Positions 28,787 to 43,588 of a stretch of 64,000 nucleotides of DNA are shown one piece after another (within the stretch, counting starts at the first letter, position 1; each line of letters begins with the position of its first letter). Made by a program: the position numbers and the translations under genes. Under the pieces are notes generated by a model, which saw only the letters and a list, made by a program, of their open reading frames with translations, did no database searches and was not told the origin of the DNA. The stretch covers positions 1 to 64,000 of the forward strand of contig NZ_JAMHFY010000011.1 in assembly GCF_023897015.1 (NCBI RefSeq), in the 5' to 3' direction. Origin of the DNA: Desulfosporosinus nitroreducens. Its GTDB lineage: Bacteria; Bacillota; Desulfitobacteriia; Desulfitobacteriales; Desulfitobacteriaceae.

Positions 28787-29734
28787 CTAGGTTTTTGCGA
28801 TGATCTCTCCCATAAGGGATATATCATACCCGCCAATTCCCATCACTTCATTGCGAAAGGAGGGGGATTTTAAGATGCTAATTAAGGCTTGAAAATGAGG
28901 GCGTTCCAGATCTTCTAGGCGTATTACTAAATCATAGCGTTCTTTATGCAGTGGGATGAAATCAAGATTAATGAATTGCATGGCCACTTTTTCAATCCCT
29001 AACCCAACGTCCGCTTCCCCACGTGCAACTTTACTGGCTATGGCCAGGTGAGTCATTTCTTCATCTGTATAGCCAAGAATATCTTTGCGATTAATTCCTG
29101 AAATTCTCAGTTGTTCATCTAACAACACTCTAGCACCGGACCCTCTTTCACGGTTTATAAAACGAATATCGGGTTTAGTTAAGTCACTCCAAGTGGTAAT
29201 ATTCTTGGGGTTTCCTTTGGCAACATAAAAACCTTCCATTCGATAAACCAAGTTTATGATGCAAGTCTGGTGACCTGGTAACAATCTGCGAACGTAGGGA
29301 ATATTATATTCGTTGGTATCGCTATCCCATAAGTGGGCAGTAACAACGTTGGCAAGGCCACGGTACAAGGCCATGAGTCCGTCAATGCTTCCGATATAGC
29401 GACGTAAGAAGTGAATCTGGGGAAACTGTTTTTCTAAATAGCGGGTTAAGATGTCCAAGACAATATCTTGACCGCAGATGACTAGGTCTTCGTCACGAGA
29501 GATACTTTGATTTAAACGTTCGCTCGATGCTGGGGGGTCTAATAGGGAGGGAAGGGAACTCATCCCTTTAGATTTTTGCTTATAGCTCTCGATATCAGCG
29601 CCTTCAACGCGGACCTTGCGGCCAATATGGTAAGCTGCCAGCTCGCCCCGCTTGATCAGCTCATAAACCGTGAACTTGGAAATCCTAAGGATTTTGGCAA
29701 CTTCTTCGGGCGTATACGAAATATCAGTGGACAT
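28787..29734 (-). CDS. HTH / periplasmic-binding-protein-like regulator, probably of molybdate uptake
   Basis: A 315-residue cytoplasmic regulator. Residues 5-55 are an excisionase-type helix-turn-helix (SYTPEEVAKILRISKFTVYELIKRGELAAYHIGRKVRVEGADI). The rest is a type-2 PBP-like ligand domain without signal peptide (WSDLTKPDIRFINRERGSGARVLLDEQL). Such fusions are found beside molybdate/tungstate transporters and are thought to sense the oxyanion. It diverges from modA, and an inverted repeat lies between the two starts. Whether it activates or represses cannot be read from sequence. Confidence 0.8.
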   Translation of the reverse strand: MSTDISYTPEEVAKILRISKFTVYELIKRGELAAYHIGRKVRVEGADIESYKQKSKGMSSLPSLLDPPASSERLNQSISRDEDLVICGQDIVLDILTRYLEKQFPQIHFLRRYIGSIDGLMALYRGLANVVTAHLWDSDTNEYNIPYVRRLLPGHQTCIINLVYRMEGFYVAKGNPKNITTWSDLTKPDIRFINRERGSGARVLLDEQLRISGINRKDILGYTDEEMTHLAIASKVARGEADVGLGIEKVAMQFINLDFIPLHKERYDLVIRLEDLERPHFQALISILKSPSFRNEVMGIGGYDISLMGEIIAKT

Positions 29735-32149: not shown

Positions 32150-32191
32150 AGCAGACCCTCTGCATTTAAAACCAAGGAAAATTGAATAGTT

Positions 32192-32303
32192 AATCTCCGA
32201 GCCAGAATGACCTAAAGAGCAAATCCATGGTCACTGGACAGGGCCTTAGGTCCTCAGGGTGTTCCCGGAAACGGGTAGGCCTTCCATTTTGAAAAGGAGT
32301 AGC
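32192..32303 (+). ncRNA. Moco-type riboswitch, copy 1
   Basis: ATCTCCGAGCC opens the motif, closed by GAAAAGGAG. Inside are TCCTCAGGGTGTTCCCGGAAACGGG, with the CCG-GAAA-CGG tetraloop hairpin, and GCCTTCC, the conserved core of the molybdenum/tungsten-cofactor (Moco/Tuco) RNA. GCCAG (about 32200) pairs with CTGG (about 32233), and GGGCC with GGTCC. It precedes a terminator and modBCAD, so high cofactor should switch uptake off. Confidence 0.85.
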
Positions 32304-32331
32304 AAGTATTAGACTGGACGCCAGTTTATTT

Positions 32332-32396: not shown

Positions 32397-32441
32397 GTGT
32401 TTATCGTGATTTATTGGGAATGGACTATACCCCGTTATTGA
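32397..32441 (+). CDS. Possible 14-codon leader ORF overlapping modB2
   Basis: GTG at 32397 stands 5 bases behind GAGAGGGGG, the best ribosome binding site in this leader, and opens a 14-codon frame (MFIVIYWEWTIPRY) stopping at 32441. It overlaps the modB2 start in another frame, so translation could be coupled. It may also be chance. Confidence 0.3.
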   Translation: MFIVIYWEWTIPRY

Positions 32442-33100
32442 TTTCACTAAGAGCAGCAATAATAGCAACTATTGTGACCTTTTTCTTGGGTATTGCAGCT
32501 GCATGCTTTGTTTCGGGATATAGGGGAAAATTCAAGGGATTGATTGACGGCGTGCTTACCTTGCCTCTGGTTTTGCCACCGACAGTTATAGGATTCTTGC
32601 TTCTTATACTTTTTGGCAAGAACGGACCTCTTGGGAAACTCTTAATGTCTATTGGAAAGACCGTGATATTTTCTTGGCCAGCAACCGTGATAGCGGCTTC
32701 AGTTGTCGCTTTCCCCTTAATGTATCGAACGGTCAGAAGTGCTTTTGAACAAATTGATCAAAATATTATTAATGCTGCTCGTACGCTGGGTGTCTCAGAG
32801 TGGAAAATATTTTGGAGGATAACGATTCCGCTTGCTTGGCCGGGAGTAGCTGCAGGTACGGTATTAGCTTTTGCCAGGGCCTTGGGCGATTTTGGCGCAA
32901 CGCTCATGATTGGTGGTAATATACCTGGGAAAACGCTGACAATCCCTGCTGCTATTTTCTTTGCAGCCGAAAGCGGAGAAATGAGAAAGGCTTTGATATG
33001 GGTGATACTTATTTTTATTGTTTCCTTGATCGTTATGACGTTAATGAATTATTGGACGGATTACCAGCGCAAGATGATCGCTACCGCTGGCAGAAAATAG
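32420..33100 (+). CDS. modB: Molybdate/tungstate ABC permease, second system
   Basis: A second ModB-type permease of about 226 residues, close in sequence to the first: LTLPLVLPPTVIGFLLLILFGKNGPLGKLL and NIINAARTLGVSEWKIFWRITIPLAWPGVAAGTVLAFARALGDFGATLMIGGNIPGKTLT. Start choice is uncertain: ATG at 32420 has GGGA touching it, and TTG at 32414 lies two codons earlier. Translation may depend on the short frame at 32397. It is first in modB-modC-modA-modD behind the riboswitch; the unusual B-C-A order differs from the first operon. Confidence 0.88.
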   Translation: MDYTPLLISLRAAIIATIVTFFLGIAAACFVSGYRGKFKGLIDGVLTLPLVLPPTVIGFLLLILFGKNGPLGKLLMSIGKTVIFSWPATVIAASVVAFPLMYRTVRSAFEQIDQNIINAARTLGVSEWKIFWRITIPLAWPGVAAGTVLAFARALGDFGATLMIGGNIPGKTLTIPAAIFFAAESGEMRKALIWVILIFIVSLIVMTLMNYWTDYQRKMIATAGRK

Positions 33101-33101
33101 T

Positions 33102-34163
33102 ATGGAAATATTGGTTGATATCCAAAAAAAACTTCCAGGGTTTGAACTTGATGTTAATTTTGAGGCAGGCATGGACATTCTTGGACTTCTAGGAGCTTCA
33201 GGTTCTGGAAAGAGTATGACCTTGCGCTGTATCGCAGGAATTGATACCCCGGATAGGGGCAGAATTGTTCTCAACGGCCGGACTTTGTTCGACTCTCAGA
33301 AAGGCATTAATCTCCCCTGCCGCAAAAGGAAGCTGGGCTATTTATTTCAAAACTACGCCCTTTTTCCTAATATGACTGTCGAAGAGAACATTGGTTTCGG
33401 AATTGGAGATAAAAAGAGAGAGGAAAGAATGGCAATCATCAAGGAAAAGGTGAAGATGATTAAGCTGGAAGGCTTGGAAAAAAGGTATCCCAACCAACTT
33501 TCCGGGGGACAACAGCAACGGGTTGCTCTGGCCAGAGCTTTGGCTATTGAGCCAGAGGCGTTACTCTTGGATGAACCATTTTCCGCACTTGACAACTATC
33601 TAAGAAGCCATATGGTCAAACAGCTGACTGAGACTTTAGCAGATTATCTTGGAGTAACCCTGTTCGTAACCCATAATATGGATGAGGTCTATAGCGTTTG
33701 CAATAAATTGGTAGTTCTTTCAATGGGGAAAATTGAAGCAAAAGGAGGGACAGAGGAAGTATTCAGGTCTCCGCCTACACTTGTATCAGCGCAATTAACA
33801 GGGTGCAAGAACTTTTCTTTGGCAAAATACATATCACCGTTTGAGGTAGAGGCATTGGATTGGGGAATAACTTTAAAAACCAAGAACGAAATTGTTAAAC
33901 ACATCGAATTTGTGGGTATTCGTGCCCATGCGATCGAACTGGCCTTAGATGAAAAACAAGACAATGTGTTTAGGTGTTGGCTTAATTTCACAAGTCAGAC
34001 TCCATCAAGGATAACAACCTATCTATCCATACAAGTCCCGGCTTTAGGAAAGGACGGTTATCACATACAATGGGAGATCACCAAACAAATGTGGTTTGAA
34101 TTGAAGGATAAACCACAGCCTTGGAACCTCCGATTTAATCCTGATGATCTAATAATTGTCTAA
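33102..34163 (+). CDS. modC: Molybdate/tungstate ABC ATPase with TOBE-like domain, second system
   Basis: A 353-residue full-length ModC. The ATPase core has GASGSGKSM (an atypical Met after Ser in Walker A), QNYALFPNMTVEEN, LSGGQQQRVALARAL, LLLDEPFSALD and VTHNMDE. Residues beyond about 230 form a regulatory extension, with EVEALDWGITLKTKNEIVKHIEFVGIRAHAIEL resembling a TOBE/molybdate-binding fold. It starts one base after modB2 with only a weak ribosome binding site, suggesting coupling. This system is riboswitch-controlled, unlike modABC upstream. Confidence 0.88.
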   Translation: MEILVDIQKKLPGFELDVNFEAGMDILGLLGASGSGKSMTLRCIAGIDTPDRGRIVLNGRTLFDSQKGINLPCRKRKLGYLFQNYALFPNMTVEENIGFGIGDKKREERMAIIKEKVKMIKLEGLEKRYPNQLSGGQQQRVALARALAIEPEALLLDEPFSALDNYLRSHMVKQLTETLADYLGVTLFVTHNMDEVYSVCNKLVVLSMGKIEAKGGTEEVFRSPPTLVSAQLTGCKNFSLAKYISPFEVEALDWGITLKTKNEIVKHIEFVGIRAHAIELALDEKQDNVFRCWLNFTSQTPSRITTYLSIQVPALGKDGYHIQWEITKQMWFELKDKPQPWNLRFNPDDLIIV

Positions 34164-34205
34164 TTTTAAATCACTGCTAAATCTAATGAGGAAGAGGGGA
34201 AATCC

Positions 34206-35057
34206 ATGAAACCACTTTATAAAATCTGGAAGTTAAGTAAAGCTAAAGTTGCCTTGAGATTTGTTGCGTGTTCGATCTTGTTTCTTGTTCTGTTTATCTC
34301 AGGATGTTCCAGCGTTGTCAATCAAGCCTCAAAACCGGAAGACAACGGAGTTGCCTATAATAAACCTATTGAACTTTTGATTTCCACTGCTCCTAGTTTA
34401 AAAGGCTCCTTTGAAGAAATTAAAGGACTGTATACAGCAAAGAATGCTCAAGTGAACTTGGTATTTAACTATGGGCCGTCAGGTTCGCTCCAAAATCAAA
34501 TCGAGCAAGGTGCTGCCACTGATATTTTTATTTCTCAAGGTAAGCCGCAAATGGATGCGCTAGAGCAAAAGGGGCTTATTAAGAAGGACTCTAGGGTAAA
34601 TTTGCTGGGTGATGAACTTGTCTTAATCGTTAATAAAAGCAACACTTCTATCAATAGCTTTGAAGATCTAACCAAGCCGGAGGTTAAGAAAATTGGAATT
34701 GGTGAAGCCGAATCAGTTCCGGCAGCTAAGACTACGAAAGAAACCCTAGAGACCCTTAAATTATGGGATGCTTTACAACCCAAGATGGTAATGGGTAAGG
34801 ATCTAATGCAAGTGATGACTTATGTGGAGACCGACAATACCGAAGCAGGTTTTGTTTGGGATACTATTGCGATTACTTCGAATAAAGTTAAAATCGTAGC
34901 TGCGGCACCAGCTGATTCTCATAAACCGGTTGTATTGCCAGCGGCAGTAGTAGCAGCCTCCAAAAATAGTGATGAAGCTTCGAAGTTCTTGGAGTATTTA
35001 CAGAGTGATGAGGCTATGAAAGTATTCGGAAAGAATGGATTTATCAAGGTAAAATAG
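34206..35057 (+). CDS. modA: Molybdate/tungstate-binding lipoprotein, second system
   Basis: A 283-residue ModA paralogue with lipobox FISGC (Cys about 37) after a long charged N-terminus. ISTAPSLKGSFEEIKGLYTAKNAQVNLVFNYGPSGSLQNQIEQGAATDIFISQGKPQMD parallels the first ModA, but with APSLKGS in place of AASMKDS and NYGPSG for FGASG at the oxyanion site. These changes could shift preference between molybdate and tungstate; that is speculation. AGGGG precedes the ATG. Confidence 0.9.
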   Translation: MKPLYKIWKLSKAKVALRFVACSILFLVLFISGCSSVVNQASKPEDNGVAYNKPIELLISTAPSLKGSFEEIKGLYTAKNAQVNLVFNYGPSGSLQNQIEQGAATDIFISQGKPQMDALEQKGLIKKDSRVNLLGDELVLIVNKSNTSINSFEDLTKPEVKKIGIGEAESVPAAKTTKETLETLKLWDALQPKMVMGKDLMQVMTYVETDNTEAGFVWDTIAITSNKVKIVAAAPADSHKPVVLPAAVVAASKNSDEASKFLEYLQSDEAMKVFGKNGFIKVK

Positions 35058-35084
35058 TTAATGAAAAAGATGGAGGTTGAGACT

Positions 35085-35930
35085 ATGTTTTATATCAGTG
35101 ATGAAACAATTGATCGATGGATTAAAGAGGATGTTCCGTATATTGATTTAACAACCCTGACCCTTGGCATAGGTGGATTCAAAGGGAAGATAAGTTTTGC
35201 TGCGAGAGAATATACGGTTTTATCAGGGGTAGAGGAAGTTTTAAGGATCTTTGCAAAGTTTGGAATTACGCCGATTCGATCGTTGCCGTCGGGTTCGGTT
35301 GTTAACAAAGGAGATATATTTATTGAAGCGGAAGGGTTAGCATCAAGTCTTCATATGGCTTGGAAAATGGCGATGAATATAATTGAATACAGCTCAGGTA
35401 TTGCAACAAGAACAAAAAGGATGGTGGATAAGGCTAAATTTCTTAATCCACAGATTACTGTTGTTGCTACAAGGAAATCCTTTCCGGGAACCAAGGAGCT
35501 TGCCATTAAGTCTATTATTGCGGGAGGGGCTTTTCCTCACCGATTAGGCTTATCTGAAACTATCTTAATCTTCAAACAACATGTTAATTTCCTTGGCGAT
35601 ATCCATAAGCTGGCCCTGGTAATGAAAGAAATCAAAGGAAATGCTTGTGAAAAGAAGGTTATCGTAGAGGTGGAAACGCTTGAAGATGCACGGCTTTTAA
35701 TCGAATCAGGTGTAGACGGATTACAATTTGATAAGATTCCTGCCAATGATTTAAGAATCATGGTTGATCAAATAAGACGACTTAACCCGAATATTACCCT
35801 TCTTGGAGCGGGTGGAATCAATGGAGACAATATCGAAGAATACGCTCGGACAGGCATCGATGCAATTGTGACCACTTCGATGTATTTTGGAAAACCTTCC
35901 GACATTGGCGTGACGATGGAAAAATATTAA
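35085..35930 (+). CDS. modD: ModD protein (quinolinate phosphoribosyltransferase-like)
   Basis: A 281-residue protein of the nicotinate/quinolinate phosphoribosyltransferase fold that accompanies mod operons. IDRWIKEDVPYIDLTTLTLGIGG at the N-terminus, TVVATRKSFPGTKELAIKSIIAGGAFPHRLGLSETILIFKQHVNFLG in the centre and EVETLEDARLLIESGVDGLQFDKI later are ModD hallmarks. Its role in molybdenum metabolism is not established. I choose ATG 35085, 8 bases behind GGAGG; the ATG at 35061 precedes that site. Last gene of the riboswitch operon. Confidence 0.86.
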   Translation: MFYISDETIDRWIKEDVPYIDLTTLTLGIGGFKGKISFAAREYTVLSGVEEVLRIFAKFGITPIRSLPSGSVVNKGDIFIEAEGLASSLHMAWKMAMNIIEYSSGIATRTKRMVDKAKFLNPQITVVATRKSFPGTKELAIKSIIAGGAFPHRLGLSETILIFKQHVNFLGDIHKLALVMKEIKGNACEKKVIVEVETLEDARLLIESGVDGLQFDKIPANDLRIMVDQIRRLNPNITLLGAGGINGDNIEEYARTGIDAIVTTSMYFGKPSDIGVTMEKY

Positions 35931-35973
35931 GCCTTGGAACGTGAACCATGATTCACAAAAAACTTTATTACCT

Positions 35974-36086
35974 TATCTCCGAGCCGGAATAAACCTAATG
36001 AGTAATCTATGGTAACCGGCTAGGGCTTTAAGCCCTCAGGGTGTACCCGGAAACGGATATGCCTTCACTATTGAAAAGGAGGTGGC
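35974..36086 (+). ncRNA. Moco-type riboswitch, copy 2
   Basis: The same conserved blocks as copy 1: ATCTCCGAGCC, CCCTCAGGGTGTACCCGG, the CCGGAAACGG hairpin, GCCTTC and GAAAAGGAGG. Stem bases change in pairs between the copies: GCCGG/CCGGC here against GCCAG/CTGG in copy 1, and GGGCTTTAAGCCC against GGGCCTTAGGTCC. A terminator and fmdE follow. Confidence 0.85.
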
Positions 36087-36113
36087 CAAGCCAGCTAGGC
36101 TTTTGTTTGGCAT

Positions 36114-36147
36114 GGCTCCACTTTCTATAGGTGGAGCTGTTTTTTAT
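36114..36147 (+). terminator. Terminator of the copy-2 riboswitch
   Basis: GGCTCCAC (from 36114) pairs with GTGGAGCT (36131-36138), followed by GTTTTTTAT. It is the probable off-switch before fmdE. Confidence 0.75.
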
Positions 36148-36253
36148 GCCAATTAAGAGGGGCGCGAAATATTTCAAATGTGGATAGGCATCGACATATT
36201 AATGAAGAGATTCATTATACGTAAAAAAGGACATTCTGAAAGGAGGAAAAAGA

Positions 36254-36799
36254 ATGCGTTCTTTGGATGAGGATCTCCAAGCAGCTGTTGCTTATCATGG
36301 TCACCTCTGTATGGGTATGGTACTGGGGGTGAGGATGGCTCGCCACGGCATGCAAATCTTGGGTATAGATGACCCCTTAAGTTTTCGTGACTCAATTGTG
36401 TATGTAGAAATGGATCGGTGCGCGACGGATGCCGTGAGTGTTGTAACGGGATGTACTCTTGGTCGAAGGAGATTAAAGGTCGTCGACTATGGGAAAATGG
36501 CAGCAACCTTCGTTAACTTGGCAACTAATGAAGCTATAAGGGTATCGCCAAAGATTGTAGCTTATCCCCAACCAGGTGAGGACCCTGTAGTTTTTATGCA
36601 GAGTTTTAAGGATGAAGAATTATTTCTGTGGAAGAAAGTGTTTATCAGTATCCCCCCGGAAGATTTGCCCGGAAAGCCCTTACATAATGTGGTATGTGAA
36701 AAATGTGGTGAGATAGTTTTAGATCGTCGGGAAGTAGCTGTAGATAGCAAGACGTTTTGCAAAGCATGTGTAAATAAACCTTATTACCAAGATATCTGA
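36254..36799 (+). CDS. fmdE: FmdE family protein with C-terminal zinc-finger
   Basis: A 181-residue FmdE-type protein, named for subunit E of formylmethanofuran dehydrogenase but widespread near molybdenum and tungsten genes. AVAYHGHLCMGMVLGVRMARHGMQILG carries the conserved His/Cys site, and CATDAVSVVTGCTLGRRRL a second cysteine pair. The C-terminus CEKCGEIVLDRREV...FCKACVNKPYY is a TraR-like zinc ribbon. GGAGG precedes the ATG. It is directly controlled by the copy-2 riboswitch, pointing to a Mo/W-cofactor task; the exact reaction is unknown. Confidence 0.82.
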   Translation: MRSLDEDLQAAVAYHGHLCMGMVLGVRMARHGMQILGIDDPLSFRDSIVYVEMDRCATDAVSVVTGCTLGRRRLKVVDYGKMAATFVNLATNEAIRVSPKIVAYPQPGEDPVVFMQSFKDEELFLWKKVFISIPPEDLPGKPLHNVVCEKCGEIVLDRREVAVDSKTFCKACVNKPYYQDI

Positions 36800-36815
36800 A
36801 AGGAGATAAATACTT

Positions 36816-37599
36816 ATGTGGGAGATTTATGACGAACTTATTGATGCAGTTCCCAAAGACTTGAAAAGTGAGCGATTGTTGTATTGGGCTTAATTGGATT
36901 TTGGTAAAATCAAAGGCCACAGGTATTGCTATGACTCCTTTGGAAGGGCATGGCTCAATCAATATGGCAGGCAATATTGTAGGTATGGGTGTTCAAGAAC
37001 TGGCGCAGTATATTAAATCGTGGAACAACTTCGAGGCGGCCTTAGCTCTTGCCGCAATAAATTCTGCACTGAATACTGAAGAAAGGGTCAAACAGCTGAC
37101 AGGTCGTTCTGTGAGTAGCCATCCACGATCCAACGCCTTTGAATATTACCGCCATCTATTCCTTAGTAAGAAGGTCGCAGTGATCGGACACTTTCCCGAT
37201 CTGGAGTCCTTGAGTGAGATATGTGAATTGTCTATCTTGGAACGGCGACCAGGTCATAAAGACTTTCCAGATCCAGCCTGCGAATACCTACTGCCACTTC
37301 AAGATTATGTCCTAATCACTGGGACTACGCTGATTAACAAGACCCTTCCACGCCTCTTGGAACTTTCCAAAAATAGCACTGTGATTCTAGTGGGGCCAAG
37401 CACGCCTTTAACTCCTCGGCTTTTCTCATTTGGTATTTCCACTTTAGCCGGTTCTGTGATTACTGATTCCAAGGTGTGGAATTTTGTTCGGCAGGGTGGA
37501 GGTGGAATGGCGATATTTCAGCATGGCTGTAGTATGGTCAAAATATCAAGCTCGGAAGAGAAGGATACTACAAATTCAAGGACTGCTGTCACGGTCTGA
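36816..37599 (+). pseudogene. DUF364 (heavy-metal-chelation-like) protein, frameshifted near the start
   Basis: AAGGAGAT sits 8 bases before the ATG at 36816, which starts MWEIYDELIDAVPKDLK, the usual DUF364 N-terminus. After AAAA (36864-36867) this frame soon stops (ERLLYWA*). Removing one A continues in the next frame as VSDCCIGLNWILVKSKATGIAMTPLEGHGSINMAGNIVGMGVQELAQYIKSWNNFEAALALAAINSALN and through to 37599, the full family length of about 260 residues. DUF364 proteins are Rossmann-like and occur beside metal importers. It could be a true mutation, a sequencing error in a homopolymer, or slippage; the rest of the frame is intact, which argues against old decay. Confidence 0.8.
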
Positions 37600-37686
37600 T
37601 CATTCTTTCAGACGAAGGAAGCTAAACCTTTACTAGCTCAAATTAAGCCCACTAAATAATAAGGCTTGAAGAGGAGAGTGTACTTA

Positions 37687-38490
37687 GTGGAAAAGTCTAT
37701 TACACTTAATCCCATCGGGATAGTAGAATCATCGATAACAAATCGTGATGACATGCCCACAAATGGAATCCAGGCAGGGATAAGGGTATTTCCACCATAT
37801 GTCGGAGCACTGGAGAGAATCGAAGAATACTCTCACTTATGGATTTTGACTTGGTTTCATCAAGCGCCTCGCGACGTCACTACCGCAGTACCATCTAAAG
37901 TCAATCCTTTGTCTCATAGATTCGGAGTGTTCGCTTTACGCTCACCGTCTCGCCCTAATCCGGTAGCTCTAACCTTGGTTAAGTTGGATCGGATTCAGGA
38001 GTATACGCTATATGTGGCTGATATGGATGCGATTGATGGGACGCTTGTTATTGATATTAAACCTTACTTCGAGCATGATACAGTATTTTCACCGCGAACA
38101 CCACAAATATCCCCTCTTAGTGTAAACGCTCTTCAGAAGACTTTGCTCAAACAAGCACTAACCCATCACGGCGAAACATGCCCGGATCTATTGCTTGCCG
38201 TTCGGATGGCGCTAATTGCGGATAAACTGCTGGGATATATAAAATCTCCAGATGTGCAGGTTCAAGTCTACGGTTCTACCTGCTTGGCCGATGCTATTCA
38301 AGGGCTTTGTAGGGCAAGACTTGCGAATCCTGCAAGATTCGAGTTTTGTTCATCTTTTATTAAACATAGTATCTGGATTAAAGGGAATCGGCGGTTATCT
38401 ATTTCAGGCGTTCGAGAGTTAGATCTAAAAGCGTTTTGGGGGTTGCCAGACTACCAGATTTTCGAGGTAGCTATGGAAGAAATAGAATAA
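37687..38490 (+). CDS. TrmO/TsaA-like domain fused to an FmdE-like domain
   Basis: A 267-residue two-domain protein. Residues about 1-135 match the TsaA/TrmO family, a SAM-dependent beta-barrel methyltransferase acting on t6A37 of tRNA in E. coli: LNPIGIVESSI, RIEEYSHLWILTWFH, HRFGVFALRSPSRPNPVALTLVKL and the acidic DMDAIDGTLVIDIKPYFE. The remainder is FmdE-like: LTHHGETCPDLLLAVRMALIADKLLG and STCLADAIQGLCRARL. GTG at 37687 lies about 10 bases behind GAGGAG; a TTG at 37666 is an alternative. Its place between FmdE and a metal-type importer suggests a role in Mo/W handling rather than tRNA modification. Confidence 0.8.
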   Translation: MEKSITLNPIGIVESSITNRDDMPTNGIQAGIRVFPPYVGALERIEEYSHLWILTWFHQAPRDVTTAVPSKVNPLSHRFGVFALRSPSRPNPVALTLVKLDRIQEYTLYVADMDAIDGTLVIDIKPYFEHDTVFSPRTPQISPLSVNALQKTLLKQALTHHGETCPDLLLAVRMALIADKLLGYIKSPDVQVQVYGSTCLADAIQGLCRARLANPARFEFCSSFIKHSIWIKGNRRLSISGVRELDLKAFWGLPDYQIFEVAMEEIE

Positions 38491-38507
38491 CAAAAGGAGG
38501 AATTTGG

Positions 38508-39539
38508 ATGAAAAGATATGTTTTGCTATCGATTCTAATATTGTCGTTAGTGTTAACGGGATGTAGTCAAGGGTCCAAGCCTGTAGTGGAAAATTCGCAG
38601 GTGCCCCAGAAAGAAAAATTGGTCATCACCGATATGCTGGGGCGTCAGGTGGAAATACCTGAAAATCTGCAGCGCATCGCTACATCAAAGTACATGGGGC
38701 ATTTGGTGTATGCCCTAGGGCAGCAAGATAAGATGGTACATCAGGGGCTGATGGGTGAGGCTGGCAAAGGAAAATCTAAGCTTGACCCCAAATATGCAGC
38801 GATGCCGGCGTTTAGAAATAATGGTTCGGTGGAGGAAGTACTTGCTTTAAAGACTCAACTGCTTTTTGTCTATGCTGATTTTGATCAAGCTTTAATCAAG
38901 CAGTTTAACGATGTGGGTATCAAAGTAATAGCATTAAAAGGAGAAACCCTGGATGAAAGCTATCAAGCGGTTAAGCTAATGGGTAAAGTCCTGGGTGCTG
39001 ATCAACAGGCTGAAGCGTATGTAAGCTATTGCCAAAATACTGTTAGTAATATCAAGGATTGTTTAAAAGATTTACCAGCCGACCAGAAACCCAAGGTGTT
39101 GATGGCTGGACCCAAGAGCATTTATACGGCTGCTACTAAAGATATGACGGCCAACAGCATGATGGAGATTGCGGGAGGCGTTAATGTAGCCAAAGATGCT
39201 GTGGGGCTTTGGGCGGAAATATCTCCCGAACAATTGGTGAAATGGAATCCCGATTATATTTTTCTGGGATCATCCAAAGGAATTTACGGTGTGAACGAGG
39301 TGTTGAATAATCCTGCTTTGGCTTCCTTGAACGCCATCAAAAACAAAAAAGTCTTTATATTTCCATCTAACCTTGGTTGGTGGGATTTCCCCGCTCCTCA
39401 AAGCGTCTTGGGAATCCAGTGGTTGGCTAACACAATGCATGGGGATAAATTTACGGACATTGATATTAAGAAGTTCACTGATGACTATTATAAGAATTAT
39501 ATGGGCAATACCTATACGGACTTGGGAGGGAAACTCTAG
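38508..39539 (+). CDS. FecB/BtuF/MolA-like substrate-binding lipoprotein
   Basis: A 343-residue class-III periplasmic-binding lipoprotein. The signal peptide ends in LVLTGC (Cys about 18). VITDMLGRQVEIPENLQRIATS is the standard N-terminal strand, and WAEISPEQLVKWNPDYIFLGSS plus NPALASLNAIKNKKVFIFPSNLGWWDFPAPQSVLGIQWLA close the second lobe. The ATG is behind AGGAGG; the frame is open further upstream but overlaps the fusion gene. Being in a Moco-riboswitch operon, it may bind molybdate/tungstate like Haemophilus MolA, or a metal chelate. The ligand is inferred. Confidence 0.85.
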   Translation: MKRYVLLSILILSLVLTGCSQGSKPVVENSQVPQKEKLVITDMLGRQVEIPENLQRIATSKYMGHLVYALGQQDKMVHQGLMGEAGKGKSKLDPKYAAMPAFRNNGSVEEVLALKTQLLFVYADFDQALIKQFNDVGIKVIALKGETLDESYQAVKLMGKVLGADQQAEAYVSYCQNTVSNIKDCLKDLPADQKPKVLMAGPKSIYTAATKDMTANSMMEIAGGVNVAKDAVGLWAEISPEQLVKWNPDYIFLGSSKGIYGVNEVLNNPALASLNAIKNKKVFIFPSNLGWWDFPAPQSVLGIQWLANTMHGDKFTDIDIKKFTDDYYKNYMGNTYTDLGGKL

Positions 39540-39597
39540 TTGTGATTTGGCAGGTATACTGAGTAGTGCCGGAACGCTTGACAAGGAGCAAATATTT

Positions 39598-40614
39598 ATG
39601 AAGAAAAAAGCTTTACTCCTAACACTGACTTTTCCGGTAATATGCATCTTAATTGCAATTTGTGCAGGGCGTTATGCTATTTCTCCATTGGAGATGGTGC
39701 AGATACTATTGACTAAGATAGGGTTAGGAGGGGGGATGGTTCCCCCCTCCCCCGAAGCGCAAAGTGTGTTTTGGCAAATCCGCTTGCCAAGGATCGTCCT
39801 AGCTTTCACGGTGGGAAGCGCCCTAGCAGTTTCTGGGGCAGTGTTTCAGGCGCTTTTCCGCAATCCCTTGGCCTCGCCAGATCTTCTGGGAGTTACAGCT
39901 GGAGCAAGTTTCGGGGCGGTGTTGGCTTTGATGTTTTTTCCTCCTTTAAGCCTCGCCATAAAATTTTCGTCCTTTCTTTTTGGGGTGGCAGCGGTATTAT
40001 GCGTACACGTACTAGCGGTTAAAAGCCGTGATCAGTCTACTGCAGTGTTGATCTTAGGCGGTATCATCGTCTCGGCAGTTTTCCAAGCGGGGGTTTCTGT
40101 TTTGAAATATTTAACAAATACTTACGATATGCTAGCGCAAATCGTCTTTTGGCTCATGGGAAGTTTTCAGACAGCAACCTGGGACTCAGTATGGAGCGTT
40201 TTCCTAGTCACCATGATTGGCACTGCTTTGATTGTTGCATTTAGTTGGCGTTTGAATATCATGTCCCAGGACGATGAACAGGCACTTTCCTTAGGTGTGG
40301 ACGTGGTTAAATGGCGGATTATTTACGTGGCCATTACCACCTTAATGGTAGGCATTTCCGTCTCTGCCTGTGGAGTCGTTGGGTGGATCGGTTTGGTCGT
40401 GCCTCACATCGCCCGATCTTTGGTCGGTTCGGAACATCGGCGTCTGATCTTTACTTCGGCTTTACTAGGAGCTTCGCTGATGCTTTTGATGGATACACTA
40501 GCCCGCTCTCTTTTTAGTTCGGAGATACCCATCAGCATTGTGACATCACTTTTGGGAGCACCATTCTTGGGATATCTGGTATTGCACCAAAGAAAGGAAT
40601 GGGTTGGAAAATGA
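39598..40614 (+). CDS. FecCD-type ABC permease (MolB-like candidate)
   Basis: A 338-residue permease with about ten membrane helices of the BtuC/FecCD family. LPRIVLAFTVGSALAVSGAVFQALFRNPLASPDLLGVTAGASFGAVLAL is the diagnostic segment, and GVVGWIGLVVPHIARSLVGSEHRRLIFTSALLGA the coupling helix. AAGGAG precedes the ATG at 39598. ATGA overlaps join it to the ATPase. With its neighbours it makes a complete type-II importer. Confidence 0.88.
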   Translation: MKKKALLLTLTFPVICILIAICAGRYAISPLEMVQILLTKIGLGGGMVPPSPEAQSVFWQIRLPRIVLAFTVGSALAVSGAVFQALFRNPLASPDLLGVTAGASFGAVLALMFFPPLSLAIKFSSFLFGVAAVLCVHVLAVKSRDQSTAVLILGGIIVSAVFQAGVSVLKYLTNTYDMLAQIVFWLMGSFQTATWDSVWSVFLVTMIGTALIVAFSWRLNIMSQDDEQALSLGVDVVKWRIIYVAITTLMVGISVSACGVVGWIGLVVPHIARSLVGSEHRRLIFTSALLGASLMLLMDTLARSLFSSEIPISIVTSLLGAPFLGYLVLHQRKEWVGK

Positions 40615-41417
40615 GTATTGAAGTCCGAAATTTAGAAGCTGGTTATGGCTTGAAGCCTATTTTGCGAGATGTCAGCATGCGTGTAGAGGAAGGCAAGATC
40701 TGCGCCCTATTGGGTAGAAATGGATCGGGAAAAACCACTTTGCTGCGCTGCCTAAATGCGTTAATCAAACCTATTCAAGGGCAGGTGTATCTTCGGGGAC
40801 AGGATATTGCGAGTTTGTCAAGGGTGGAGATTGCCCGTATGGTTAGTGTCGTGCCTCAGAGCACTAGTGCTCCTTTTAATTATCCTTGTCTAGAGGTGGT
40901 ATTGATGGGAGAGGCGGCGCGTTTGAATCCTTGGTCTGCGCCTGGGGAAGTCGCAAGGCAGCGGGCTAAAGGGGTTTTTAAACTAATTGGGATAGAGCAT
41001 CTGCTGGATCACGATTATAATGGGATTTCTGGTGGCGAACAGCAATTGGTGCTATTGGCAAGAGCACTTTTTCAGGATGCGCCTTATATGCTTTTAGATG
41101 AACCCAACTCACATCTGGATTTTTCTAATCAACATCATATGATGACTTTAATGCGACAATTAGCTAAACAGCATGGCATCACTATGCTTATCACTTTACA
41201 TGACCCTAATCTAGCTTTTTATTACTGCGATGAAATTGTTCTAATGCGACAGGGGCGTCTTGTTTGCCAAGGGCCAACGATTGAAGTTTTGACAGATATC
41301 AACCTTAGTGCAATATACGGAAATAACATTCAGACTGATCTTACTTCCCGGGGAATGCAAGTGGTAGTGCCTAAGGGGGTTGTCATGGGCGCGGTAGAAC
41401 AAACCTTGGTTTGTTAG
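40611..41417 (+). CDS. FecE/MolC-like ABC ATPase
   Basis: A 268-residue ATPase energising the FecBCD-type importer. Motifs: LLGRNGSGKTTLL (Walker A), VPQSTSAPFNYP (Q loop), ISGGEQQLVLLARAL (signature), YMLLDEPNSHLD (Walker B) and ITLHD (switch). The ATG at 40611 overlaps the permease stop as ATGA; an in-frame ATG at 40599 is possible. It ends the riboswitch-controlled operon. A cobalamin riboswitch begins about 110 bases downstream but reads onward, so it does not control this transporter. Confidence 0.88.
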   Translation: MSIEVRNLEAGYGLKPILRDVSMRVEEGKICALLGRNGSGKTTLLRCLNALIKPIQGQVYLRGQDIASLSRVEIARMVSVVPQSTSAPFNYPCLEVVLMGEAARLNPWSAPGEVARQRAKGVFKLIGIEHLLDHDYNGISGGEQQLVLLARALFQDAPYMLLDEPNSHLDFSNQHHMMTLMRQLAKQHGITMLITLHDPNLAFYYCDEIVLMRQGRLVCQGPTIEVLTDINLSAIYGNNIQTDLTSRGMQVVVPKGVVMGAVEQTLVC

Positions 41418-41524
41418 CGAGTCTTGGCAAGATGCGAGAAACCCTGATAACCCGAAAGGGTATGCTTGACCGAGTTGTGGTTTTGTGTTAAGTTTAATTT
41501 ATTAAATAAATGAGCAAGTGATTT

Positions 41525-41680
41525 TCTATAGCAGAGAAATCATAACAGGGAAGCCGGTGTAAATCCGGCGCGGTCCCGCCACTGTAACGGGGAGTTTCTG
41601 CCACACATCCACTGAGGAAACTTGGGAAGGAGGCAGTAAATGAGGATCCTGAGCCAGGAGACCTGATTGCTTGGATGCTT
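41525..41680 (+). ncRNA. Cobalamin riboswitch, copy 1
   Basis: CAGGGAAGCCGGTGTAAATCC, then GGCGCGGTCCCGCCACTGTAAC (B12-box region with GCCACTG), and the distal GAGCCAGGAGACCTG are the conserved blocks of the adenosylcobalamin aptamer in the right order. A terminator follows 40 bases later. No gene follows that terminator before the next leader element. Confidence 0.92.
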
Positions 41681-41716
41681 TACTCACGATGGATGGGTGG
41701 AGGGACTTGTTAATTT

Positions 41717-41742
41717 GGCCCTTCATTTTGAAGGGCTTTATC
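41717..41742 (+). terminator. Terminator after cobalamin riboswitch 1
   Basis: GCCCTTC (41718-41724) pairs with GAAGGGC (41730-41736), followed by TTTATCTATT. Confidence 0.8.
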
Positions 41743-41749
41743 TATTATT

Positions 41750-41935
41750 AAATGTACATAAAAGGTTTCCAGAGGGAAACTGACCTGCAGGGTCAATGTC
41801 TTGTTCAAGTGGGATCTGCTTACAAAAATGCGAATGCAACTTGAAAGCGGAGGAGAACGCGCCGTCCGAGACAACCGATACATTGCTGTCTTCAGGATTA
41901 GTGATGTGAGGTTGTCTCTTTATTTTTTTATAGGT
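41750..41935 (+). ncRNA. Structured leader of unassigned class, with terminator
   Basis: Consecutive stems are visible: GTTTCC/GGGAAAC, GACC/GGTC, TTCAAGT/ACTTGAA and GCG/CGC. They end in the terminator GAGACAACC (41868-41876) / GGTTGTCTC (41910-41918) with a T run. It has the size and layout of a riboswitch but none of the aptamer signatures I know, and no gene follows before the next riboswitch. Confidence 0.45.
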
Positions 41936-41984
41936 GTCGATGATCACTAGATATCATAAAACTAAATACTTAGGGAATTTAGGT

Positions 41985-42150
41985 ACCGAAGTTCGAGAAC
42001 CTCGGTTTAAAAGGGAAACAGGTGTAATTCCTGCATGGTCCCGCCGCTGTGATGGGGAAATGGCTCATTAGATGCCACTGGACGAGTCCGGGAAGGTATG
42101 AACCATTGATGATCCAGAGTCAGAAGACCTGCCTAAATGATGCAAGCCGA
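41985..42150 (+). ncRNA. Cobalamin riboswitch, copy 2
   Basis: AAAAGGGAAACAGGTGTAAT, then GCATGGTCCCGCCGCTGTGA (GCCGCTG in place of GCCACTG), CTGGACGAGTCCGGGAAGG and AGAGTCAGAAGACCTGCC reproduce the aptamer. It precedes its own terminator, an ABC-transporter remnant and the adenosyltransferase gene. Confidence 0.9.
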
Positions 42151-42208
42151 AACTCTACGAGCGATAGAGGAGGTATTATTAGTGATGAGCAAATGTTTAT
42201 CAGTATTT

Positions 42209-42244
42209 TAAGCCTCTTGACCAATCGGTTGAGAGGCTTTTTGC
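42209..42244 (+). terminator. Terminator after cobalamin riboswitch 2
   Basis: AAGCCTCT (42210-42217) pairs with AGAGGCTT (ending about 42239), followed by TTTTTG. Confidence 0.8.
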
Positions 42245-42399
42245 ATGGAGTGGCTTATTTTTGCGAGATGTATCAAATTGATAATGAATCAGAAATGGGC
42301 CAACTCATCGTAATATTGTGCGCCGTTCCAGCATTGAGATCATTTTGAAATCTAAAGAGGTTACAAAATATGTTGAAGGAGTGGTCTGATCATATATTC

Positions 42400-42995
42400 A
42401 TTTTTCCATAAGAAAACTTGTATTGCATCGGTTGTTTTTTCATTTTTACTGCTCTCTGTTTTAGTTATGTTTTCCCTATACGGTCAGAGAACTTGTAACC
42501 ATGGGTCGGGCTAGGCATATTGGGCTTTTCTCTGTGCCCTCGGGAAAGGATAAAAAAATAGCAGATGAGGCAATTGATGAAGTAGGCATCAGTTCCATTC
42601 GAGACAAGTTGTGTAATCATTTAAGCGGCGGACAATTGCAACTTGTCTTCATTGCCAGAGCTTTAGCCAGTGAACCTAAGGTGCTGGTTCTAGATGAACC
42701 AGAATCACACTTGGACTTTAGGAATCAATTTATGATCTTAAATCTTATTAGGAGATTGGTCAAAGAACGCTGCCTAGCTTGTATTATCAATACTCATTAC
42801 CCGGAACATGCTCTGCGTCTGTCTGATACTACGCTGCTCTTGGGTAAAAAATCTTATTTGTTCGGAAGGACTAGAGAAATTATTACGGAAAAAAGAATTG
42901 AAGAGTATTTCGGAATTAGTGCAAAGATTTTGCCAGTGCCCTATAAGGGTGAGGAGATCAAAGCCTTTGTTGTATTGGATACCTGTGTTCCATAG
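42400..42995 (+). pseudogene. Collapsed cobalamin-type ABC transporter (permease start joined to ATPase end)
   Basis: From about 42410 one frame reads FHKKTCIASVVFSFLLLSVLVMFSLYG, the first membrane helix of a BtuC/FecCD permease. At about 42477 the sequence switches to the middle of an ABC ATPase: YTVRELVTMGRARHIGLF, HLSGGQLQLVFIARAL (signature), VLVLDEPESHLDF and INTHYPEHAL, ending at 42995. Walker A and the rest of the permease are gone, so roughly 1.2-1.5 kb was deleted. An ATG at 42501 gives a 164-residue frame that cannot be a working ATPase. Its riboswitch remains intact upstream. Confidence 0.8.
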
Positions 42996-43057
42996 AGAAT
43001 CCTAAGAATGAAATAGATAAAGATACGGTTTGAAGTTAAGAGGAAGGAGATGTAAGC

Positions 43058-43588
43058 ATGCAACAAGGACTTATCCATATTTATACTGGTGCAGGGAAAG
43101 GAAAGACAACTGCCGCAGTGGGGTTGGGAATTAGGGCCTATGGACAGGGACTTAAGGTCCTGATGGTTCAATTTTTAAAAGGATGGGATACCGGGGAAAT
43201 GAAGGTCATCGCCACCTTAGAACCGTGCTTTCAACTCTTTCGATACAAGGAAAATGACAAATTCGTTTGGAATATGACTGATGAAGAAAAAAGCGGGCTG
43301 GAAAGAGAAATGCGGATTGGTCTGAACTATATTGTGGAAGCAATCATGAGCGAGGAATGGGACATGATCATCATGGATGAGATTATGGCTGCTGTGAATT
43401 ATGGATACCTACCACTTGAAGAAGTAGTCGAGATTGTAAAGAACAAACCACTAAAACTCGAACTGGTGTTGCCCGGGCGAGATGCCCCAGTAAAGCTGAT
43501 CGAGTTAGCTGATTATGTCTCGGAAATCACTGCCCGCAAACATCCCATGGCCAAGGGCATAATAGCGCGGGAGGGAATTGAGTATTAA
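43058..43588 (+). CDS. cobO: Cob(I)yrinic acid a,c-diamide adenosyltransferase
   Basis: A 176-residue CobO/BtuR/CobA-type enzyme that transfers the 5'-deoxyadenosyl group of ATP to reduced corrinoid, making adenosylcobalamin. IYTGAGKGKTTAAVGLGIRAYGQGLKVLMVQFLKG holds the P-loop, and WDMIIMDEIMAAVNYGYL and VLPGRDAP are further signatures. AAGGAG lies before the ATG. It stands behind cobalamin riboswitch 2, so it should be shut down when B12 is plentiful. It supports the corrinoid enzymes at 55-62 kb. Confidence 0.9.
   Translation: MQQGLIHIYTGAGKGKTTAAVGLGIRAYGQGLKVLMVQFLKGWDTGEMKVIATLEPCFQLFRYKENDKFVWNMTDEEKSGLEREMRIGLNYIVEAIMSEEWDMIIMDEIMAAVNYGYLPLEEVVEIVKNKPLKLELVLPGRDAPVKLIELADYVSEITARKHPMAKGIIAREGIEY

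Follow-up and report, generated by a model that had tools for sequence, protein, structure and literature searches.

Molybdenum and tungsten uptake has so far been described almost entirely through ModABC, TupABC and WtpABC. MolBC-A, a proven BtuCD-type molybdate importer, acts beside ModABC (PMC4031551). RNAs of the molybdenum cofactor/tungsten cofactor (Moco/Tuco) riboswitch class are already known upstream of molybdate transporters, and RNAs with stem P3 accompany Moco metabolism while those without it accompany Tuco (Regulski et al. 2008, PMC2408646). Among protein families of unknown function, most FmdE genes adjoin metal-ion transporters and a fusion of FmdE with UPF0066 (TrmO) was listed in 2010 (PMC2954224), and for DUF364 (Dhaf4260, PDB 3l5o) chelation of the transported heavy metal has been proposed (PMC2954201). 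Here we describe a locus in 64,000 nucleotides of Desulfosporosinus nitroreducens DNA (contig NZ_JAMHFY010000011.1, hereafter the window) in which a Moco RNA precedes genes for FmdE, DUF364, a TrmO-FmdE fusion and a FecBCD-type importer. Because this arrangement repeats in relatives far above chance, it probably represents a second, poorly known route of molybdenum (or tungsten) uptake and handling in anaerobes.

All six genes lie on the + strand (Table 1), and Pfam confirms the family of each. Five of the six have a ribosome-binding site in front of them, the permease and ATPase genes overlap, and a search of the + strand from fmdE to the ATPase gene found no strong terminator-like site between genes. 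With its FecCD/BtuC-type permease, ATPase and class III binding protein, the importer has the composition of MolABC-type systems. A first-pass annotation, made from the sequence alone, had described a Moco-class riboswitch before six same-strand genes including a complete importer, a unit distinct from the two ModABC systems just upstream, and both the RF01055 score and Pfam agree with it; the RNA in fact begins at 35965, earlier than the 36000 given there.

Table 1. Features of the Moco-linked region of the window.
Feature	Coordinates	Strand	Evidence and remarks
Moco RNA (RF01055), before modBCA-modD	32183..32316	+	66.2 bits; P3 hairpin
modB, modC, modA, modD	32414..35930	+	follow the Moco RNA at 32183-32316
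Moco RNA (RF01055), before fmdE	35965..36097	+	68.8 bits against a gathering score of 36; P3 hairpin AGGGC-TTTAA-GCCCT
Terminator-like hairpin and T run, putative expression platform	36112..36140	+	directly after the 35965-36097 aptamer
FmdE core domain with C-terminal dksA/traR-type zinc finger	36254..36799	+	PF02663 6e-31; PF01258 8.9e-7
DUF4213/DUF364 protein, frameshifted	36816..37599	+	Pfam 1.6e-36 and 4.9e-17 (PF04016); PDB 3l5o 4.8e-37
TrmO_N-FmdE fusion, 267 amino acids	37687..38490	+	Pfam; PF01980 2e-29
Class III substrate-binding lipoprotein (Peripla_BP_2), lipobox LTGC	38508..39539	+	Pfam
FecCD/BtuC-type permease	39598..40614	+	PF01032 7e-90
ATP-binding cassette (ABC) ATPase of the importer	40599..41417	+	Pfam

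The aptamer before fmdE is a full-length match that covers positions 1-135 of the RF01055 model. Its P3 stem is the hairpin AGGGCTTTAAGCCCT, and because this stem is present we assign the RNA to the Moco rather than the Tuco type by the criterion of Regulski et al.; the earlier wording of a Mo/W system was to that extent overstated. Folding of the region 36060-36160, which holds the putative expression platform, gave z = -3.05 and was better than all 200 shuffles. P3 was also seen in the FecBCD-linked Moco RNAs of the relatives that we inspected, whereas it is apparently missing from the RNAs before the importers of Pelotomaculum UBA4789 and Desulfotomaculum BL5, so that RNAs of both the Moco and the Tuco type seem to serve the FecBCD module, the D. 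nitroreducens copy being of the Moco type.

Next we took 46 genomes from the same family, 43 of them with Moco RNAs (147 in total), and asked how many genes are linked to such an RNA, counting FecCD genes at E <= 1e-20 and calling a gene linked when it lies on the same strand and at most 5 kb downstream of a Moco RNA. We found 20 of 121 FecCD genes linked against 0.3 expected (22 Moco sites in 13 of the 46 genomes), 7 of 31 DUF364 genes against 0.08, and 5 of 8 TrmO-FmdE fusions against 0.02 (6 of 8 within 8 kb), where the expected counts come from RNAs placed at random, ignore the kinship of genomes and the general clustering of metal genes, and are a guide to size rather than a test. On the enrichment of FecCD genes we reject chance co-location. 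Furthermore, Acididesulfobacillus acetoxydans and Peptococcaceae CEB3 also carry the full gene set after a Moco RNA, in the order Moco-FecCD-substrate-binding protein (SBP)-TrmO/FmdE-(FmdE)-DUF364-ATPase-radical SAM-SBP. One further genome (G003) has Moco-Crp-FecCD-ATPase-DUF364-SBP-ModABC-ModD, and four (G010, G012, G023 and G033) share the order Moco-modBCAD-Moco-FecBCD with other binding proteins. Parts of the module recur behind Moco RNA in Pelotomaculum UBA4789 and Desulfotomaculum BL5. The co-occurrence survey that the first-pass annotation had called for thus bears out its proposal of one Moco-controlled unit of importer and soluble proteins, conserved in other genera. Its description as undescribed was overstated: since papers from 2010 note the links of DUF364 and FmdE to Mo, W and metal transporters as well as the fusion, the parts and their loose association were known, whereas we found no description of their union with FecBCD behind a Moco RNA. 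A search for FmdE or DUF364 together with Moco RNA, MolABC or molybdophores returned, apart from general work, nothing but the papers of 2008 and 2010; the main text of PMC2408646 does not mention fmdE, and FecBCD importers as targets of the riboswitch were not found in the literature searched. A Moco-sensing RNA before FecBCD importers points to a second uptake route that would be common in anaerobes, and it cautions against labelling every FecBCD importer as an iron or B12 transporter.

Further genes of note were seen in relatives. Nitrogenase-like genes (NifH-like, NifE-like, NifD/K-like) lie behind Moco RNAs (L134:841-1599, L095:3347-5823, L236:257-3264) and often share an operon with FecBCD importers. 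Proteins of about 600 amino acids (L237:7148-8947, L239:7159-8970, L284:7181-9031, L320, L319 and L157) are apparent cytoplasmic enzyme-SBP fusions. Their N-terminus, as tested in L237 alone, resembles the radical SAM protein AmmeMemoRadiSam, and their C-terminal half, unseen by Pfam, fits a local profile of class III SBPs.

The P3-bearing aptamer, the terminator-like hairpin, the co-directional genes, the linkage in several genera and the retained metal-site residues lead us to favour, with moderate confidence, the reading that the operon is a molybdenum-acquisition unit, comprising an importer repressed when Moco is plentiful together with soluble proteins. With Moco plentiful, the RNA would bind it and the terminator would form, by what we take to be ligand-induced termination; with Moco short, transcription would pass the terminator into the operon. 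The class II (FecBCD/BtuCD-type) importer would then bring in molybdenum, and FmdE, DUF364 and TrmO-FmdE may receive the metal or dismantle its ligand; the role in metal or cofactor processing that the first-pass annotation gave these three is likewise unproven. Molybdenum (or tungsten) is, on these sequence comparisons, the likely cargo, and given such a cargo a chelate is favoured slightly over the oxyanion, at close to even chances. This lean towards a complex rather than free molybdate comes from two ModABC systems already taking up molybdate, from FecBCD systems usually carrying chelates, and from the TonB receptor of Sporomusa and the radical SAM and methyltransferase genes of relatives.

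If the oxyanion were the cargo, the importer would be a MolABC-like carrier of free molybdate or tungstate that complements ModABC with lower affinity or high capacity, as in Haemophilus, with the soluble proteins as metal chaperones or sensors. The Haemophilus influenzae system (HI1470-1472) likewise works beside ModABC and has a permease and ATPase of the class II BtuCD type and a binding protein of class III, and its proven molybdate transport lends this possibility weight. The AlphaFold2 model of the window lipoprotein (mean pLDDT 85) has MolA (3psa) as its top Foldseek match (3.4e-22), and by sequence MolA scores 3.9e-33 against 3.6e-7 for BtuF, behind 4hn9 (3.4e-35) and ahead of 4ovk (1.1e-30). 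However, 4hn9 and 4ovk, structures with no assigned molybdenum role, score as high as or higher than MolA in VIA-align (Z of 32.5 and 30.1, respectively, against 30.0), identity to MolA is below 30%, and in the SBP tree the lipoprotein clusters with MolA and 4hn9 at 92/94 on long branches. MolABC-likeness, as first suggested, has the top fold match and the near-best sequence match in its favour and is weakened by the tie with 4hn9 and 4ovk and by the tree position; membership of the window importer in MolABC is unproven. Neither a Moco RNA nor the soluble proteins are reported for MolABC in the available part of PMC4031551. With two ModABC systems just upstream, and TonB receptors, radical SAM enzymes and methyltransferases in the modules of relatives, we regard import of the free oxyanion as possible but rather unlikely.

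In a wider scan of one genome per species, the fusion was found in Pelotomaculum, Desulfocucumis, Sporomusa, Pelosinus, Syntrophomonas and others, and Moco RNAs are present somewhere in 35 of the 39 fusion-bearing genomes. P. terephthalicicum has FmdE-DUF364-TrmO/FmdE divergent from Moco-SBP-FecCD-ATPase. Clostridium ragsdalei carries XdhC-FmdE-DUF364-SBP-TrmO-MoeA, and a genome-wide count gives it three Moco RNAs. In Sporomusa and related metagenome-assembled genomes the order is SBP-radical SAM-unknown-FmdE-FecCD-TrmO/FmdE-ExbB-ExbD-(TonB)-ATPase-TonB receptor, and we count the receptor and ExbBD-TonB in favour of a chelate cargo; in Pelosinus a TonB receptor and importer lie close to modABC and modD. 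Seven loci (L253, L256, L264, L276, L250, L258 and L272) have this Sporomusa-type arrangement, in which the TonB receptor, ExbBD and TonB surround FmdE, FecCD and TrmO-FmdE and which also holds a 381-amino-acid protein that matched neither Pfam nor NCBIfam. A more far-reaching version of the chelate reading is that anaerobes import molybdenum or tungsten in complex with a dedicated organic ligand, via FecBCD importers controlled by Moco/Tuco RNAs, that DUF364, FmdE and TrmO-FmdE make or dismantle the ligand with radical SAM, methyltransferase and nitrogenase-like partners found in relatives, and that the diderm Sporomusa and Pelosinus have a TonB receptor of their own for it. We offer this as a tentative idea, on balance unlikely; if true, it would be a molybdenum counterpart of siderophore uptake.

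Several observations weigh against the acquisition reading or its chelate form. The Sporomusa-type modules showed no Moco RNA in the scanned locus, and their SBPs form a clade distant from that of the window, so that only the shared soluble proteins extend the chelate argument to the window. In several Syntrophomonas-type genomes (L254, L260, L263, L267 and L268) the neighbours of the fusion are genes that, judged by sequence alone, are acyl-CoA dehydrogenase-like and CoA-transferase-like, and the three such loci scanned (L254, L263 and L268) gave no Moco RNA; a tie between the fusion and molybdenum is therefore not universal. There are also FmdE-FecBCD pairs that stand apart from Moco RNAs, and the frameshifted DUF364 gene of the window together with a degenerate fmdE in the relative SRJS8 (see below) indicates that the soluble part can be lost.

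These pairs, and the membership of FecBCD importers in what is mainly a siderophore, B12 and haem family, raise the question of whether the importer carries some other chelate (an iron siderophore, a corrinoid or haem), with the Moco RNA as a metabolic link or the product of recent leader shuffling. To explain the Moco linkage of the SBPs, the tree needs at least six changes, which rules out one single Moco-linked SBP clade and could speak for such shuffling, yet the strong enrichment behind Moco RNAs is repeated with several unrelated SBP lineages, and ModABC, ModD, MoeA and XdhC genes stand in the same clusters. The SBPs of Acididesulfobacillus, CEB3, C. ragsdalei and Sporomusa occupy another part of the tree, and, as judged from it, the SBP partners of the soluble proteins come from deeply different lineages. 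Cobalamin riboswitches do lie just downstream of the importer, but they serve a separate remnant ATPase and adenosyltransferase, and we accordingly dropped corrinoid import as the default reading. Overall, a cargo other than molybdenum or tungsten appears improbable.

We then examined the metal sites of the soluble proteins. FmdE of the window keeps the HGHxC motif of its family (structures 2glz, 2gvi and 3d00) as YHGHLC, plus a distal DRC cysteine, and shares with that family the zinc finger and the metal-ion transporter neighbours; the ligands in 2glz are His15, His17, Cys19 and Cys55 (PMC2954224). The fusion differs in having Glu for the second His (H-x-E-x-C) and in its place in a Moco-controlled importer operon: its motif is H161-x-E163-x-C165 with C199, D202 and Q205, all invariant or nearly so across 43 homologues. 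In its structural model the N-terminus, an S-adenosylmethionine (SAM)-binding barrel, matches the TrmO/YaeB tRNA methyltransferase structures 7btu and 2nv4, with the 2nv4 SAM complex as top fold match, and the C-terminal region, an FmdE domain by Pfam, matches 2glz. Bacterial TrmO has a C-terminal tRNA-binding domain. With a score of 110.8 against 93.25 the fusion passes the cut-off of the TrmO equivalog, and the name FmdE derives from formylmethanofuran dehydrogenase operons (PMC2954224), both compatible with FmdE and TrmO-FmdE acting in Mo/W enzyme assembly or tRNA modification and being merely co-regulated with the importer. We find that independence from the cargo doubtful, as the genome has further TrmO-like genes (C8:95941 and C2:137422), an FmdE domain follows TrmO_N in the fusion, the operon holds no gene for a Mo enzyme, and FmdE, DUF364 and the fusion are found together with FecBCD in different genera. 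The locus in any case offers a testable setting for DUF364, FmdE and a SAM-domain fusion.

Close relatives differ at the modD-fmdE junction. The second Moco RNA and its platform (about 290 bp) are absent there in Desulfosporosinus lacus (L093) and SRJS8 (L094). In D. lacus, whose fusion is 98% identical to that of the window, fmdE starts 33 bp after modD, co-directionally, and the two lie in a single unit behind the first Moco RNA; therefore Moco control of the module persists whether one RNA is present or two. SRJS8 shows that the module can decay: its fmdE is degenerate and the locus lacks the importer genes. Other relatives have a Moco RNA after modD that precedes different genes.

The DUF364 gene had been read as an ordinary gene, but DNA alignment shows its frame to be broken near the N-terminus. 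From its natural start, ATG 36816 behind AAAGGAGAT, the frame meets TAA at 36891, and it is open only from GTG 36868. The A run at 36864-36867 is AAAA in the window and AAA in D. lacus and BRH_c37, and this one extra A accounts for the stop. The frameshift is either an assembly error, conceivable because the sequence comes from a 95-contig draft assembly, or a real mutation. Dhaf4260 is of the same family and has a similar neighbourhood (W, Mo, V and Fe transporters), whereas its gene is not described as linked to a Moco RNA in the available part of PMC2954201.

Two further features flank the region. Beside modABC lies a one-component regulator with HTH_17 and PBP_like domains (28787-29734, - strand), a possible molybdate or tungstate sensor, and genes alike in start and length are found again next to mod/FecBCD clusters (L237, L239, L243 and L273). 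Downstream of the importer, genes for a truncated ABC ATPase and a cob(I)yrinic acid adenosyltransferase follow two cobalamin riboswitches in tandem (41499-42995 and 43058-43588). This 41499-43588 region is the remnant of a corrinoid importer operon, of which D. lacus retains only a 94-amino-acid ATPase piece.

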